From contig LR134390.1 in assembly GCA_900637705.1 (NCBI GenBank), positions 186,001 to 250,000 of the forward strand: a stretch of 64,000 nt of DNA, in the 5' to 3' direction. The stretch's first letter is position 1. Each line of letters opens with the position of its first letter. The position numbers and the translations under genes are program-made. Below, piece after piece: positions 1,342 to 25,979 of the stretch. The notes beneath the pieces were generated by a model that was not told the origin of the DNA, did not search any database, and saw only the letters and a program-made list of their open reading frames with translations. Origin of the DNA: Fusobacterium varium. GTDB taxonomy: Bacteria; Fusobacteriota; Fusobacteriia; Fusobacteriales; Fusobacteriaceae.

Positions 1342-1369
1342 TATATCAACTAAGTAATGTATATCCATC

Positions 1370-1381
1370 AAATAAACGTAT
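1370..1381. promoter_or_regulatory. Candidate operator, right arm of 12-bp inverted repeat
   Basis: AAATAAACGTAT mirrors 1261-1272. It overlaps a local palindrome (CGTATATACG) just ahead of the GGAGG ribosome binding site at 1396-1400, so a bound protein could block elongation or help loop the DNA. Inferred IclR-family site. Confidence 0.45.
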
Positions 1382-1406
1382 ATACGATATAAATGGAGGA
1401 GCGAAG

Positions 1407-2045
1407 ATGTATGAAGAATTATTGAAAGTATTGAGAAAAGAAAAAATAGTAGCAATATTAAGAGATGTTCCTTTAGAAAAATTTGAAAAAACATTAGAAA
1501 TTTTAAAAAAAGAAGGAATAAAGATTTTAGAAATAACATTAAACAGTAAAGATGTAGAGAAACAATTTGAAATACTTAAAGAAAAATATTTGAATGATTT
1601 TGTAATTGGAGCAGGAACAGTAGTAACCCTAGAGGGATTAAATTTTGCTGTAGAAAATGGAGCTAAATTTATACTTACACCTAATATAGATGAAGAAATA
1701 TTAAAAGAAGCAGAAAAGATTGGAATATTGTGTGTATGTGGATTTTTTACAGCTTCTGAAGCTATGAAAGCTAAGAAATACAGTTGCTGTAAAATTTTAA
1801 AATTATTTCCAGCAGGAGAAGTTCCATTTTCTTATTTAAAATCTCTTAAGGGTCCAATAAATGATCTTGAATGTATGGCAGTAGGAGGTGTTAACAGAAA
1901 TAATGTTTCTGAATTTTTAAAAGCAGGTTTCAGCTGTCTTGGTATAGGAAGTTCTCTAGTGGATAATAAACTAATAAAGGCAGGGAAATTTGATGAATTA
2001 AGAGAGAATATAATTGCTATAAAAAAAGCTGCTGAAAGTTTTTAG
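1407..2045 (+). CDS. eda: KDPG / KDPGal aldolase (Eda/DgoA family)
   Basis: Class I aldolase that splits 2-keto-3-deoxy-6-phospho-sugar acids into pyruvate and glyceraldehyde-3-phosphate in the cytoplasm. In this operon the natural substrate is probably 2-dehydro-3-deoxy-6-phosphogalactonate, so the role is that of DgoA. The 212 residues match the family length. Visible key residues are Glu42 in ILEITL, Thr71 in GAGTV, and the Schiff-base lysine Lys132 in LKLFPAGE. The start is ATG after a GGAGG site. It is the first gene of the operon, 16 bases ahead of the kinase start. Specificity between gluconate- and galactonate-derived substrates cannot be told from sequence. Confidence 0.93.
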   Translation: MYEELLKVLRKEKIVAILRDVPLEKFEKTLEILKKEGIKILEITLNSKDVEKQFEILKEKYLNDFVIGAGTVVTLEGLNFAVENGAKFILTPNIDEEILKEAEKIGILCVCGFFTASEAMKAKKYSCCKILKLFPAGEVPFSYLKSLKGPINDLECMAVGGVNRNNVSEFLKAGFSCLGIGSSLVDNKLIKAGKFDELRENIIAIKKAAESF

Positions 2046-19531: not shown

Positions 19532-20752
19532 TCAATTTTTACCTATATTTGCTTTTATTATCTGATTGATTTCTGTATTCATTATTTCTTCATTAATTAA
19601 ATAAAGATTTGAAGATTTTTCAGTATAAGGCAGTATGTTTTTGGTTTCTTTTCCTATATCAATAACAGCTTCTATTGAACTTCCTACAGGAATCATGCCA
19701 TTTTTTTTAAGGCTGTCTTTATCTATGACTATACGAACAGGAACTCTTTGAACAATTTTTATCCAGTTTCCAGTTGCATTTTGTGCTGGGAGCAAAGAAA
19801 GAGAGCTTCCTGTACCAGCTGATAATCCTTGTACATAACCAATATATTTTTTTCCGTTGATGTCACTTACAAGTTCAGCTTCATCTCCTGGTTTTACCCC
19901 TTTTAGTTGTGTTTCTTTTAAATTTGCATCTACCCAAACATTATTTAAATCTATAATAGTCATAAGCTCTTGTGAAGGAGAAATTTTTTGACCTAAAAAT
20001 ACAGATTTCTTAGCAATAGTTCCAGATTCAGGAGCAAATATTTTCGTTCTCATAAGATTAACATAGGCATCTTTATATGCTGCTATTGCTTGTTGGACAT
20101 CTGGATGATTATATATTGAATTACTGTCAGCTTGTATTTTTGCATTTTCTAAAGCTTTTTTACTTTGATTTAAAGATGAAATAGCTATATTTAAATTATT
20201 TTTGCTTGTTTCATACTGATGTTTACTTATTAATCCAGCATTATATGAAGCTCTATCCATAGCAAAATCAGTTTCTGCTTTTTTTAGTTGACTTTCTTTT
20301 ACTTTCACATCATCTTCAGTTTGGGCTGCATTTGAATAAAGACTTGAATATGCACGAACAGATTTTCCGAGATTTGCAGTAGCATTTTCTAATGCTATTT
20401 TATAATCTGTATCATCTATAACTGCAAGGAGTTGCCCTTTTTCAACAAACTGAGTATCCTCAATATAAATTTGTGTAATAGTTCCTCCAACTTGGGAAGT
20501 AATTACATTTTGATTTCCATTAACATAGGCATCATCAGTTTTTACATAATTTCTTCCATATAAAAGCCAATAAGCTCCATATATTATTCCTATTACTGCA
20601 AGTATAATAAGAAATATAAAAATTTTTTTCTTTGCTTTACCTATTTTTACTTTTTTATCTTCAGATTGATTTTCTGTAACTTTGGGAGAGTCAACAGGTT
20701 TATCTTTTTCTGTTTCCTCTACATTATCTTTAGTCAATATTTTATTTTCCAT
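19532..20752 (-). CDS. EmrA/HlyD family periplasmic adaptor
   Basis: Membrane fusion protein linking the EmrB-like exporter to the outer-membrane channel, about 406 residues. A charged cytoplasmic N-terminus is followed by one membrane helix (about residues 45-68, IFIFLIILAVIGIIYGAYWL), then the HlyD barrel start YVKTDDAYVNGNQNVITSQV, a biotinyl-lipoyl-like half (GQLLAVIDDTDY), a coiled-coil hairpin (about 115-210) and the returning half (IFAPESGTIAKKSVFLGQKI). ATG 20752 has GGAGG five bases upstream; the ATG at 20764 overlaps that site. 14 bases downstream of the outer-membrane factor gene. Confidence 0.92.
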   Translation of the reverse strand: MENKILTKDNVEETEKDKPVDSPKVTENQSEDKKVKIGKAKKKIFIFLIILAVIGIIYGAYWLLYGRNYVKTDDAYVNGNQNVITSQVGGTITQIYIEDTQFVEKGQLLAVIDDTDYKIALENATANLGKSVRAYSSLYSNAAQTEDDVKVKESQLKKAETDFAMDRASYNAGLISKHQYETSKNNLNIAISSLNQSKKALENAKIQADSNSIYNHPDVQQAIAAYKDAYVNLMRTKIFAPESGTIAKKSVFLGQKISPSQELMTIIDLNNVWVDANLKETQLKGVKPGDEAELVSDINGKKYIGYVQGLSAGTGSSLSLLPAQNATGNWIKIVQRVPVRIVIDKDSLKKNGMIPVGSSIEAVIDIGKETKNILPYTEKSSNLYLINEEIMNTEINQIIKANIGKN

Positions 20753-20766
20753 ATTATCCTCCATTT

Positions 20767-22187
20767 TTATTTATAAATTTCATATGCTCCACCAAGAGAG
20801 TTTATAAGTTGTAGCTGTTGAGTATATAAATTAAAATGCTGTTGCTCATTGTCTAGCTTACTGCTATACCAGCTATATTTTTTAGAAAGATAGTCATACT
20901 TTGAAATAGTTCCAATTTCTAATCTTTTTTTATCCCTTGAAAGTAAATTTGTCTGTGTTTTAAAATTCTTATCAGAATCATTTAAAGTATTCCATAAAGT
21001 TTTAGTTTTATAAAGTTCATTGTCTACATCATTATATGCATTAATAATTGCTTTATTGTATTCTTCTATAAAAATATTCATATCAGTTCCAGCTATTTTA
21101 TATGTACTTTTGATAGCACCTGAATGAAATATAGGAAGATAAATACTTGGACCTATAAAACCTAAAAGGGAATCTTTTCTCAATATTTTATTAAAATTGA
21201 TACCTTCAAAACCATATTGACCTGTGATAGAAAATTGTGGATAAAAATCTGCTTTAGCAGCTTCTAAATGTTTTTCTTGACCTTTTATCAACATGAGATA
21301 ATATTCTACATCTGGTCTGTTTATGATGATGTCAGAAGATATAGAAGAAGGAATATTAACTTTTTCTTTAAATTCTGGGGTTAATTCTTGAGAATTTTTT
21401 TGTAGAAGAGAATATATTTCATCACTGTGTTTGTTACTTGATAAAATATTCAAATTATTTATTGTAAGCTGCTTATTGAGTTCATTTTCTTTAAGAAGCA
21501 TATCAACTGTTCTTATTTCATTTTGAGCAGCCCATACATTATCTTCTGTTCCATTTCCTATTTTTAAATTTTTTTCTTGTAGTTTTTCTATTTCAATGAG
21601 AATATTTTTTGTTCAGTAAGAATAATATTTTCTTGGTATAAATATTTCCAATATAGATAAAGTCTAGCTACTCTGTTAGATAAATCTAACTCTATCCATT
21701 TTGAATTTAATTTTACAGCTTCTGCTTTGTATTTTTGTTCTGTTATTAATGAATTAACTTTGTTAAATAAATCAATGTTGTAATCAGCTTGAAGCCCAAT
21801 ACTTCCAATGTTAATTATTTTTCCTCCAAAAGGTGGTGGAGTAGTTCCGTTTTTTCCAAGCTTTTCTCTTTTTAAATCTCCAGCTAAATTTATTGTTACA
21901 CCTGAATCAGATTTTGCAAGATTTACAGCTTCATCAGCTTTTAAAATATTAAGTTTAGCTATTTTCAAATCTTCATTTTCTTTCAAGACAAAATTTATTA
22001 ATTGATTAAGTACTGGATCATTGTATATTCTCCACCAGCTTGTATTTGAAAAAATAAGCTTCTGATTTTCAAAAACACCAGTAGAAATATTATTAGAAGT
22101 AATAATTTCATCTTTTGTAATTTTTGGTATTGGTGAACAGCCTAAAAGTGTTGATAATATAAGTATTAAAACAAATTTTTTATTCAT
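20767..22187 (-). CDS. TolC/NodT-type outer-membrane factor lipoprotein (frameshifted in this sequence)
   Basis: Outer-membrane channel of the tripartite pump, about 473 residues after adding one base at the T6 run 21605-21610; without it the frame ends at 21588 and resumes to 20767. The signal peptide ends LSTLLGCSP, a lipobox with Cys17, as in NodT-type factors. OMF features are WWRIYNDPVLNQLINFVLKEN, the first long helix (LKIAKLNILKADEAVNLAKS), the internal repeat INRPDVEYYLMLIKGQEKHLEAAKADFYPQFS, quoted here by its ends, and IEEYNKAIINAYNDVDN. The ATG has AAGGAGG upstream. First gene of the efflux operon. Confidence 0.85.
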
Positions 22188-23300: not shown

Positions 23301-24653
23301 TTATGTGCTTTTTAACATAGTATTTCTTTTCCAGTTTCCATATTTCATATAAATTGTGCACATTATTAATGAGATAAAGGTAGCTAAAGGAGCTCCAAAT
23401 CCTATCTCATAAAGTGTTATATCTTTTATTCTGCTTAGAATAAAAGAAACAGGGATTCTTATAAAAAATGTAGCTATAAGACTATGTATCATTGGAAAAA
23501 TAGGATGACCACATCCACTGAAAAAAGAATTCATACAGAAGATAAAACAGACAAGAATACAATCTATACTATATGATCTTAAATACATTGCAGCTGTCTG
23601 TATAACTTCTTTATCATTAGAGAAAAGAGCAGTAATATTTTCTGGGGATATTTGTGAATAGATATAAAAAGCAATACCTAAAACTAAAGAACATCCAATT
23701 CCAAAATAAAGCGATTTCTGTGCTCTGTCTATTTTTCCAGCTCCGATATTTTGGGCAGTCATCACAGCTATAGCAGAAGCAAAAGCTGTTGGAGGAAGCA
23801 TAGCAAATACAATAATTTTTTCAACTACTCCTACAGCAGCTGAAGCTGTGAGTCCCATGGTATTTATAATGGCCGTAATAAGTAAAAAAGATATGTTTAT
23901 AAGTCCATCTTGTAATGCAATAGGAAATCCAAGATGAAATATAATCTTAGCCTTTTTAGGAAATAACCAGATATATTTTTTACCAAATTCAAAAGGGAAT
24001 CCTTTTTTCCATAAAAATGAAATTGCAAGAAGAAAACTTATTCCCTGAGCACCAATAGTGGCAATGGCAGCTCCTATTGCTCCCAGTTTAAAAAAATCAA
24101 TAAGAATGACATCAACAGCTATATTTATAATACAAGCAATAATTATGAAATATAGTGGAGTTTTTGAATCACCCATTCCTCTTAAAATACCACTTATAAC
24201 ATTATAACCTATTATGAATGGAATACCACATGAACATATAAAAATATACTGCTGAGTATATTTGAGAGCTTCAGCAGGTGTATGCATTATTTTTGCAATA
24301 GGATTAGTAAATAATATCATAAGAAGAGTAAGGACTATAGAAGTCAAACTGAATACACATATGATAGTTCCAATAGTTTTTGCCATATCCTTTTCTCGTT
24401 TTGCTCCAAGATATTGTCCAATAAGAATAGTACCTCCAGTAGTTATACCTAAGATAACTCCTGTAATTGTCTGCATTACCTGACTTCCAATAGCTACAGC
24501 AGATACAGCAGCAGAATTTGCATACTGTCCAACTACAAAAAGATCAGCAGCTCCATAAAACGCTTGGAGAAGACTCGCTATAAGAAAAGGAAATGAAAAT
24601 TTTAGTAAGTTTTTGAAAATATTCCCTTCAATTAATAAGTTTTTTTGTTCCAT
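23301..24653 (-). CDS. MATE family efflux transporter
   Basis: Complete MATE exporter of 450 residues with about 12 membrane helices. The opening IEGNIFKNLLKFSFPFLIASLLQAFYGAADLFVVGQY and the matching second-half sequence LGFPIALQDGLINISFLLI (both quoted in part) show the two-bundle repeat of the family; GTILIGQYLGAKRE and VMTAQNIGAGKIDRA are the paired loop motifs. Substrate unknown. GGAGG lies 12 bases before the ATG. Its mRNA leader carries a strong terminator hairpin between promoter and ribosome binding site (24676-24730), so expression is probably set by attenuation. Confidence 0.93.
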   Translation of the reverse strand: MEQKNLLIEGNIFKNLLKFSFPFLIASLLQAFYGAADLFVVGQYANSAAVSAVAIGSQVMQTITGVILGITTGGTILIGQYLGAKREKDMAKTIGTIICVFSLTSIVLTLLMILFTNPIAKIMHTPAEALKYTQQYIFICSCGIPFIIGYNVISGILRGMGDSKTPLYFIIIACIINIAVDVILIDFFKLGAIGAAIATIGAQGISFLLAISFLWKKGFPFEFGKKYIWLFPKKAKIIFHLGFPIALQDGLINISFLLITAIINTMGLTASAAVGVVEKIIVFAMLPPTAFASAIAVMTAQNIGAGKIDRAQKSLYFGIGCSLVLGIAFYIYSQISPENITALFSNDKEVIQTAAMYLRSYSIDCILVCFIFCMNSFFSGCGHPIFPMIHSLIATFFIRIPVSFILSRIKDITLYEIGFGAPLATFISLIMCTIYMKYGNWKRNTMLKST

Positions 24654-24675
24654 AAATAAAAAATCCTCCTGTAAT

Positions 24676-24730
24676 TAAAAAAATGCTGGACAAAACAGTT
24701 GGGGTTTTATCCAACCATCTTATCCAGCAT
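24676..24730 (-). promoter_or_regulatory. Transcription attenuator in the MATE mRNA leader
   Basis: On the minus strand ATGCTGGATAAGATGGTTGG pairs along about 20 positions (some G-U) with CCAACTGTTTTGTCCAGCAT around an 8-base loop, followed directly by T7. It begins about 28 bases after the expected transcription start and ends 23 bases before the MATE ATG, so it is a leader terminator and not a gene-end terminator. The signal that opens it is unknown. Confidence 0.7.
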
Positions 24731-24764
24731 ATAAATTTTTTATATACCCTCCGATGAACAATTT

Positions 24765-24793
24765 AGTATACAATATTTAAGATAAATTATCAA
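24765..24793 (-). promoter_or_regulatory. Promoter of the MATE gene
   Basis: On the minus strand TTGATA (24793-24788), a 17-base spacer and TATACT (24770-24765). Confidence 0.7.
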
Positions 24794-24937
24794 GGGGAAC
24801 ATTATATGTATATTGATAGAAATAAAAAAATATCTTATTGTCCTTAACAGTTAGACCTGAATGAAAAATCATGATATAATTACCTAGAAAAACAGTCATA
24901 AAAAGAGGCAGGGGAAGACAAATTATATAAAGTATGC

Positions 24938-24943
24938 TATAAT
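24938..24943 (+). promoter_or_regulatory. -10 box upstream of pilT operon
   Basis: TATAAT 32 bases before the pilT start. The matching -35 region (AAGACA at 24915-24920, 17-base spacer) is weak. Confidence 0.45.
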
Positions 24944-24974
24944 ATAAAGTAAAAATTATTTAAGGGAAGGTATA

Positions 24975-25979
24975 ATGATTTTATTAGATATCTTAGAAAA
25001 AGGTCAAGAAAAAAGAGCATCAGATATTCATCTGGTAAATAAAGAAAAAGTAATTTATAGAATAAATGGAAAACTGATGCGAGATGAAGAAAATGATGAA
25101 GTTTCAGAGAAATTTTTAATGGAGTGTATAAAAGAAATATTGACAGAGAAGCAAAGAGAGATATTTAAAGAAATTAAAGAAATAGATACAGCTTTTGAAG
25201 ATGTAAAAAAAAGAAGATATAGAATAAACCTGTATAATGAAAAAGGAATGCCTGCATTTTCTATAAGAGTTTTAACAAAGAAGATACAAAGTTTTGGAGA
25301 ATTAAATCTTCCAGAAATATTGAAAGATATGATAAAATATGAAAATGGTCTGGTACTTGTAACTGGAGCTACAGGAAGTGGAAAAAGTACAACTTTAGCA
25401 GCTATGATTGAAGAAATAAATCAAAAAGAGGCCTTAAGTATTGTAACGATTGAAGATCCTATTGAATATATTTTTGAAAATAAAAAAAGTTTTATAAGGC
25501 AGAGGGAAATAGGAACTGATACTTTATCTTTTGCTAATGCTTTAAAAAGTGTTCTTAGACAAGACCCAGATATAATAATGGTTGGAGAATTAAGAGATGT
25601 AGAAAGTATAGAGGCTGCACTTACAGCAGCTGAAACAGGGCATCTTGTATTTGGAACTCTTCACACTAATGGAGCAGTAGAAACAATCAACCGACTTATA
25701 GATGTTTTTTTAAAAGAAAAACAGGAACAGATAAAGATACAACTTAGCTCAGTATTGAAAGGAATTATAAGTCAGCAATTATTGTTAGATAAAGAAAAAG
25801 AAATTATACCAGCTTTTGAAATACTTTTTATAAATACTGCAGTATCTAATTACATTGCTACTGGAAAAGTAAATCAGATATCTACTGTTATAGAAACTGG
25901 ACAAAAATATGGAATGATTTCTATGAGAGAATATCTTTCTAATATGTATAAAAATGGAGTTATAGATAAAAAAAGCTGA
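24975..25979 (+). CDS. pilT: PilT-like type IV pilus retraction ATPase
   Basis: Secretion-superfamily ATPase of 334 residues. It has the N-terminal PilT domain (RASDIHLVNKEKVIYRINGKL), Walker A GATGSGKST (131-139), an Asp box and Walker B region (RQDPDIIMVGELRDVESIEAAL), and the His box TGHLVFGTLHTN. The region between them matches PilT more than PilB/GspE, which are much longer. PilT powers pilus retraction for twitching and DNA uptake. No other pilus gene is nearby. GGGAAGG precedes the ATG. First gene of a long plus-strand operon; 22 bases before hemZ. Confidence 0.88.
   Translation: MILLDILEKGQEKRASDIHLVNKEKVIYRINGKLMRDEENDEVSEKFLMECIKEILTEKQREIFKEIKEIDTAFEDVKKRRYRINLYNEKGMPAFSIRVLTKKIQSFGELNLPEILKDMIKYENGLVLVTGATGSGKSTTLAAMIEEINQKEALSIVTIEDPIEYIFENKKSFIRQREIGTDTLSFANALKSVLRQDPDIIMVGELRDVESIEAALTAAETGHLVFGTLHTNGAVETINRLIDVFLKEKQEQIKIQLSSVLKGIISQQLLLDKEKEIIPAFEILFINTAVSNYIATGKVNQISTVIETGQKYGMISMREYLSNMYKNGVIDKKS

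Follow-up and report, generated by a model that had tools for sequence, protein, structure and literature searches.

Upstream of a MATE exporter gene on the minus strand of the Fusobacterium varium window (the whole 64,000-nt stretch of DNA analysed here), a sigma-70-type promoter is followed by a 20-bp hairpin and U7, and the question raised by this locus is what purpose a terminator serves in that position, and what would allow RNA polymerase to pass it. Computation on the window and its relatives yields a conserved element with two mutually exclusive folds, a defined placement relative to promoter and terminator, and a link to exporter genes of several superfamilies. The element is probably a small antitermination riboswitch, a candidate for a widespread class controlling multidrug exporters. 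The features of the locus, in the order of transcription and all on the minus strand, are as follows.

24765–24793, minus strand: sigma-70-type promoter, TTGATA (24793–24788), 17-nt spacer and TATACT (24770–24765), matching 10 of 12 consensus positions
24753–24756, minus strand: 5' strand of P0, CAUC, near the predicted transcript start, pairing with GAUG in the minimum free energy (MFE) fold of the 5' half
24749–24752, minus strand: GGAG, the 5' strand of the conserved internal loop, which second units of tandem leaders retain as well
24726–24748, minus strand: P1 hairpin, 10 bp in the window, with a GGY/RCY base and a variable upper stem
24720–24725, minus strand: GGAUAA, the 3' strand of the same loop, doubling as part of the terminator 5' arm
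24716–24719, minus strand: 3' strand of P0, GAUG, also within the terminator 5' arm
24683–24730, minus strand: intrinsic terminator hairpin, mutually exclusive with P0/P1, from the fold and the pairing in relatives
24677–24683, minus strand: terminator U-run, seven T, the first being the last base of the stem
24665–24669, minus strand: ribosome binding site of the MATE gene, GGAGG
23301–24653, minus strand: MATE family efflux transporter, 450 aa, ATG at 24653, the predicted regulated gene

The terminator stem-loop (24730–24683) has 20 pairs, 7 of them G-C, and a loop of 8. The MFE of the 90-nt window leader was −30.8 kcal/mol, against −14.9 ± 3.0 kcal/mol in 200 shuffles (z −5.3), none of which was equally stable, and two terminator-like sites, one nested in the other, were found within 24500–25000, where 0.1 were expected. 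The 450-aa product was identified as a MATE protein (TIGR00797, 223 bits; PF01554, E 5e-58), and the transcript start is predicted 1–3 nt upstream of CAUCGGAGGG. An initial annotation of the window had read the region as a promoter followed by a hairpin of about 20 bp and T7, all ahead of the MATE ribosome binding site, and the coordinates, the fold statistics and the count of terminator-like sites bear this out. Further along the same strand, at 20767–22187, frames of 199 and 244 aa resemble a single outer-membrane efflux protein split in two, possibly a frameshifted gene, and are adjoined by an HlyD-like adaptor (19532–20764), as judged by eye from the list of open reading frames.

Within the genus, the leader is 90–93% identical in three other genomes, and a fourth genome (G019, locus L042) carries a diverged copy upstream of a MATE gene whose product is 43% identical to that of the window. 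Between the window and G019 leaders, CAUCGGAGGGUA and GCUGGAUAAGAUG are identical, and the stem between these two conserved blocks and the apical stem differ, with pairing retained. The exact core was present in 5 of 98 Fusobacteriota genomes (the window's genome and four relatives), and an RNA-model search of the same 98 genomes gave 11 matches at E ≤ 0.1, comprising 5 real copies (bits ≥69.7) and 6 judged junk by inspection, with no further credible copies.

A search core was derived from the two diverged Fusobacteria leaders (CAUCGGAGGG...GGAUAAGAUG), and the pattern CATCGGAGGGN{12,42}GGATAAGATG was scanned over a collection of 84,980 species. The pattern occurs once in the window and was absent from all 100 window shuffles, ruling out a chance or repeat origin of the motif. 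Genomes of Bacteroidota, Bacillota and Spirochaetota contained it at no fewer than 119 loci, the matches listed including Bacteroidales, Lachnospiraceae, Oscillospiraceae, Clostridium, Lactobacillales, Negativicutes, Treponema and Brachyspira, and when the matches listed were set in register nearly all resembled the window leader. Terminator arms paired at ≥7 of 9 positions in 118 of 124 sequences (the 119 matches listed plus 5 Fusobacteria), the six pattern matches with a weak arm being L069, L091, L097, L106, L136 and L171; L136 was rejected as a chance match in coding DNA.

Relaxed patterns matched in 24 of 391 Clostridia genomes (by inspection, 4 canonical copies and one variant, L240), 16 of 295 Bacteroidales genomes (6 canonical copies, by inspection) and 24 of 300 Negativicutes genomes (22 canonical copies, by inspection), counts that are not unbiased frequencies because some genomes were already known positives. 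Some Negativicutes copies have a loop one G shorter. An RNA-model search of 22 of the 24 Negativicutes loci matched 20, the two missed (L347 and L351) both being judged false, and a first RNA-model look at 398 genomes of the phylum of G111 scored only 11 candidates per genome and does not constitute a census. In IMG/VR, a loop-relaxed pattern gave 17 matches, one of them real (L326) and with the canonical loop, and no loop variants of the motif were seen in that scan; a plasmid scan gave one match, in Bacteroides finegoldii NZ_OY725936.1, where a MATE transporter is annotated downstream of the motif. The Clostridia variant L240 (1500–1577) has a C-U mismatch in P0 and no exporter behind it, the next frame lying on the opposite strand, and looks like a decaying orphan copy.

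Secondary structure was analysed in an alignment (A6) of 63 sequences, hand-picked from 111 after removal of near-duplicates and the six weak-arm matches. The terminator helix was paired in 97.8% of 630 cells over these 63 relatives, with 27 double-changed cells against 3.3 ± 4.1 in shuffles (0 of 500 shuffles as high), and carries a variable apical hairpin in both the folds and the alignment. At the P1 base (GGY/RCY) 98.9% of cells were paired, the pairs at columns 11–38 being U-G in 32, C-G in 19, U-A in 10 and other in 2. The upper part of P1 is variable in sequence; among the matches listed, mean MFE of the P1 hairpin was −6.3, compared with −2.4 with shuffled linkers (n = 123), and 98% of the 123 were more stable than the mean of their own shuffles. 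For the 5' half of 118 sequences, mean MFE was −10.1 kcal/mol both freely folded and with P0 forced, and mean P(A2–U49) was 0.95. P0 (CAUC/GAUG) showed no covariation in the main set, being invariant because the search pattern fixed both strands, and no compensated P0 variants were recognised with the relaxed pattern in the 391 Clostridia and 295 Bacteroidales genomes. For full-length leaders, mean MFE over the 118 sequences was −31.5, and the terminator fold was obtained in all eight examined, including the window. The terminator 5' arm is the 3' half of the 5' hairpin, and since GCYGGAUAAGAUG is used by both folds, the two cannot coexist.

The suggestion in the initial annotation of a leader terminator that something must disrupt, with room for a small ligand-binding fold, gains backing from the conservation, pairing and competing folds of the relatives. 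A plain terminator, merely lowering constitutive expression, would account for the stable terminator that exists, but would leave unexplained why the 5' half is so strictly conserved beyond the terminator and why it has a competing fold, and is scarcely credible.

Under the riboswitch reading, the first ~41 nt would fold co-transcriptionally into one hairpin, consisting of P0, the asymmetric GGAG/GGAUAA loop and P1. A ligand, probably a toxic small molecule removed by these exporters, would lock the GGAG/GGAUAA loop, and the ligand-held hairpin would keep GCYGGAUAAGAUG occupied, so that no terminator forms and the exporter is transcribed. In the ligand-free RNA, CUUAUCYRGC would instead capture GCYGGAUAAGAUG, the terminator would form, and transcription would stop. 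Three elements of this scheme are inferred: cellular termination, direct sensing of a small molecule, and an effect that turns expression ON.

Tandem arrangements bear on the 5' hairpin. A second unit follows the first in L226, L231 and L359–L364, and in some Negativicutes leaders a second such hairpin is located inside the terminator. A strict script found a complete second unit in 3 of 6 tandem loci tested (L361, L362 and L364 failed), and examples read CCUGUAGC-GGAG-P1-GAUAAA-GUUGCAGG in L359, AUAUC-GGAG-P1-GAAGUAA-GAUAU in L360 and AUUGUCC-GGAG-P1-GAACAA-GGGCAGU in L363 (the same site as L226). Since the P0 strands of these second units differ from CAUC/GAUG and yet pair, they provide independent support for P0, the only such support.

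By tblastn, 107 of the 119 matches listed are followed immediately by a co-directional MATE gene and none has one upstream; among the matches listed, GAUG and the start of MATE are a median of 56 nt apart. Downstream proteins of ≥300 aa among the matches listed (n = 89, possibly including a few non-MATE proteins) formed 9 single-linkage clusters at 40% identity, and the element is therefore not riding on a single gene lineage. The 12 non-MATE loci of the 119 comprise three with ≤302 bp of downstream DNA (L073, L083 and L144), the false L136, a Bcr/CflA MFS exporter (L102), a DHA2 MFS exporter (L131), three genes not known as exporters (L100, DUF554; L070, B3/4 protein; L056, HD protein), and three whose downstream gene has no assigned family (L059, L075 and L099). 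Additional loci precede a Bcr/CflA MFS (L223), an MFS_1 (L226) and an SMR gene (L231).

In Negativicutes, the downstream gene is MATE by profile in L342, L343, L344, L346 and L357 and by eye in L345; it is MFS by profile in L341, L350, L352, L359 and L360 (MFS_1 in the last four), by identity of site in L348, L353 and L363 (the same sites as L102, L223 and L226), and by eye in L356, L361, L362 and L364; it is DUF554 in L349 and L354 (= L100), and has no assigned family in L355. Most assigned non-MATE genes are exporters (Bcr/CflA, EmrB-like, other MFS and one SMR), alongside DUF554 and one ABC-F. The riboswitch-type hallmarks of a conserved core, covarying helices (P0 itself being fixed by the search), an expression platform and a consistent place before functionally related genes are all present.

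Several of these loci were observed individually. The DUF554 membrane protein lies behind the element in two Negativicutes genomes (L100/L354 and L349) and may be an uncharacterised exporter. In L231 (1500–1601, minus strand), a tandem, partly degenerate element precedes the SMR (Qac/Ebr-like) exporter gene. In L358 (Negativicutes, leader ~1360–1546, minus strand), the motif and an apparent second unit precede a ribosomal-protection-like ABC-F gene (349.7 of 380 bits, slightly below the cut-off), the only non-transporter resistance-type target seen. A possible lead is the Porphyromonas gingivalis MATE gene PG0827, which is reported to respond to iron limitation with a 920-fold induction (PMC10434189).

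No neighbour family recurred among the 63 next genes and 87 upstream genes of the loci listed, and a travelling gene cluster was rejected on this basis. The same neighbours bear on a protein-based switch. BglG/LicT-type proteins bind a hairpin overlapping a terminator, and the leader RNA might likewise be bound by a conserved antiterminator protein: it shares with the ribonucleic antiterminator a hairpin that has an asymmetric internal loop and overlaps the terminator 5' arm. However, PTS genes are lacking, no regulator or antiterminator protein family recurs beside the exporter genes among the 63 + 87 neighbours, and a core near-invariant across Bacteroidota, Bacillota, Fusobacteriota and Spirochaetota would demand that every one of these phyla has a highly conserved protein; we regard this reading as improbable.

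Promoter placement was consistent with a hairpin at the very start of the RNA. A sigma-70 promoter (≥9 of 12 positions) lay ≤60 nt upstream in 79 of 123 relatives among the matches listed, against 3 of 119 control windows, and the distance from the end of the −10 box to CAUC was 9 or 10 nt in 61 of these 79, so that the hairpin begins at about nucleotide 2–4 of the RNA in Bacillota and Fusobacteria. TAnnTTTG, the Bacteroidetes −7 box, was found within 45 nt in 27 of the 123 relatives. In 24 Bacteroidales loci (among L054–L172), GTTTTGTAATCCT stands immediately 5' of CATCGGAGGG; their transcripts probably start further upstream than in Bacillota, and this conserved 5' extension may be functional.

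The initial annotation had also raised a leader peptide, with a seven-codon frame opening at the 5' arm of the hairpin and GGAGGG rather far upstream. The hairpin-arm ATG (ATGCYGGATAAG) is present in just 23 of 123 relatives, the 7-codon frame in 18 of those, frame lengths are scattered, and the apical TRARA falls in different frames in 44, 15 and 1 sequences and is absent from 63 (n = 123); a conserved leader peptide was accordingly rejected. The GGAGGG is the conserved core of the element. A ribosome-based attenuator, in which disturbed translation would lead to opening of the terminator, either through translation of a short leader frame or through ribosome binding to the GGAGG core, could appeal to GGAGG being a perfect Shine-Dalgarno sequence (invariant by pattern), to the AUG inside GAUG, with a 3-codon frame from it in 50 of 123 relatives, and to the ABC-F gene behind L358. 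Frames of other lengths from that AUG are scattered, however, the TRARA loop is read in different frames, the distance from GGAGG to AUG is far from normal spacing, and second units of tandem leaders retain GGAG with no AUG in P0, leaving such an attenuator very unlikely.

The riboswitch candidate was compared with known RNA classes. The initial annotation could name no matching class, and this held in Rfam 15, which gave no gathering match in the window and none at the motif in 18 diverse loci; at the evalue threshold, the window returned weak unrelated families, e.g. CRISPR-DR66 at 28.6 of 45 bits. In the controls, guanidine-I was found and guanidine-IV leaders were missed in 6 of 6 cases (L184, L186, L187, L192, L194 and L199), so that silence in Rfam says little about novelty. 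No description of the motif was recognised among the papers listed by literature searches, where one given solely in a figure or supplement would escape.

According to PMC7736828 and PMC11611296, guanidine-IV (GGAM-1, mepA motif) shares with the element a short leader, an intrinsic terminator platform, ON logic (predicted here), exporter genes including MATE, and a range of several phyla including Fusobacteria. It differs in its core, a CCGGG hairpin loop and an AGGU terminator loop, and, as those two sources describe it, in its hairpin-loop pseudoknot topology and in sugE as the main gene (PMC7736828, PMC11611296). Guanidine-IV leaders were observed before sugE-type (PF00893) genes of Lactobacillales in L184, L186, L187, L192, L194, L199, L206, L208 and L175. 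A guanidine-IV model, made from 8 leaders upstream of such genes in Lactobacillales, scored the held-out leader L199 at 45.9 bits but matched the motif neither in the window nor in any of 36 further loci that carry it, and with filters off gave the window only 4.7 bits; the motif model matched 0 of 9 guanidine-IV leaders, and the AGGU...G conserved in the terminator-hairpin loop of guanidine-IV was absent from the window and the 63-row alignment. Guanidine-IV membership was therefore rejected by cross-model search in both directions.

The element could still be an already described motif in another guise, the likeliest being Gd4v, an orphan guanidine-IV variant found mostly with transaminase and GNAT genes, as its authors describe it (PMC9788692). 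Their description has in common with the element the orphan status, a terminator topped by a hairpin, frequent MATE targets, enrichment in gut bacteria and Negativicutes examples (PMC9788692), and ACCGG/AGGU of guanidine-IV weakly resembles CAUCGG/AGAU over this short stretch. Yet transaminase genes make up >50% in the account given there (PMC9788692), against a listed set here in which 107 of 119 are MATE, and the two hairpins with a pseudoknot described for Gd4v (PMC9788692) contrast with a CAUC that is placed at the 5' end instead of in a hairpin loop and has no GU after it. Point mutants in its second loop are reported at the adjacent G57 and U58 (PMC9788692), and neither this conserved G57-U58 nor the two-hairpin pseudoknot is found in the 63-row alignment, a comparison made by that paper's description only. 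No Gd4v examples near ornithine-cyclodeaminase genes were recognisable in 120 Negativicutes genomes. Together with the guanidine-IV model scores, these differences make identity with Gd4v unlikely, and the predicted ON riboswitch family, present in many gut bacteria and set apart from Gd4v by description, is apparently undescribed.

As to what such a riboswitch might bind, the in vitro selected FMN aptamer reportedly has an internal loop of GGAUA/GAAG. Set against the GGAUA/GGAG of the element in the same strand order, this loop matches at 8 of 10 positions, a likeness equalled, in a crude test, by 10 of 240 composition-preserving permutations and 468 of 200,000 uniform random loops. The aptamer is artificial, however; its A25 is G in the element, its U14–A23 is missing, and its GGAUA is not kept in the second units, which have GAUAAA, GAACAA or GAAGUAA. 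The loop one G shorter in some Negativicutes copies also counts against the likeness. The MATE proteins Bfe and YeeO are reported as flavin exporters (PMC5655446). A more specific proposal, that gut bacteria of several phyla use the new class, singly and in tandem, to detect a planar heteroaromatic toxin or a flavin-like compound by way of the FMN-aptamer-like loop and to switch on the MATE, MFS or SMR protein that removes it, is unlikely to hold. Rfam, which includes the yjdF family, matched the motif neither in the window nor in the 18 loci. The yjdF riboswitch reportedly senses diverse aromatic nitrogen compounds (abstract of PMC4793209).

MATE, MFS and SMR proteins share function and not sequence, and a common toxic ligand is therefore favoured for the riboswitch candidate. 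If the candidate is what it appears to be, it would point to an unrecognised common toxic compound in the gut environment; guanidine's recognition as a metabolite came by the same route. It would also help to establish what 'multidrug' exporters really transport, and would supply a compact switch in which a ~41-nt sensor overlaps the terminator and which exists in natural tandem versions.
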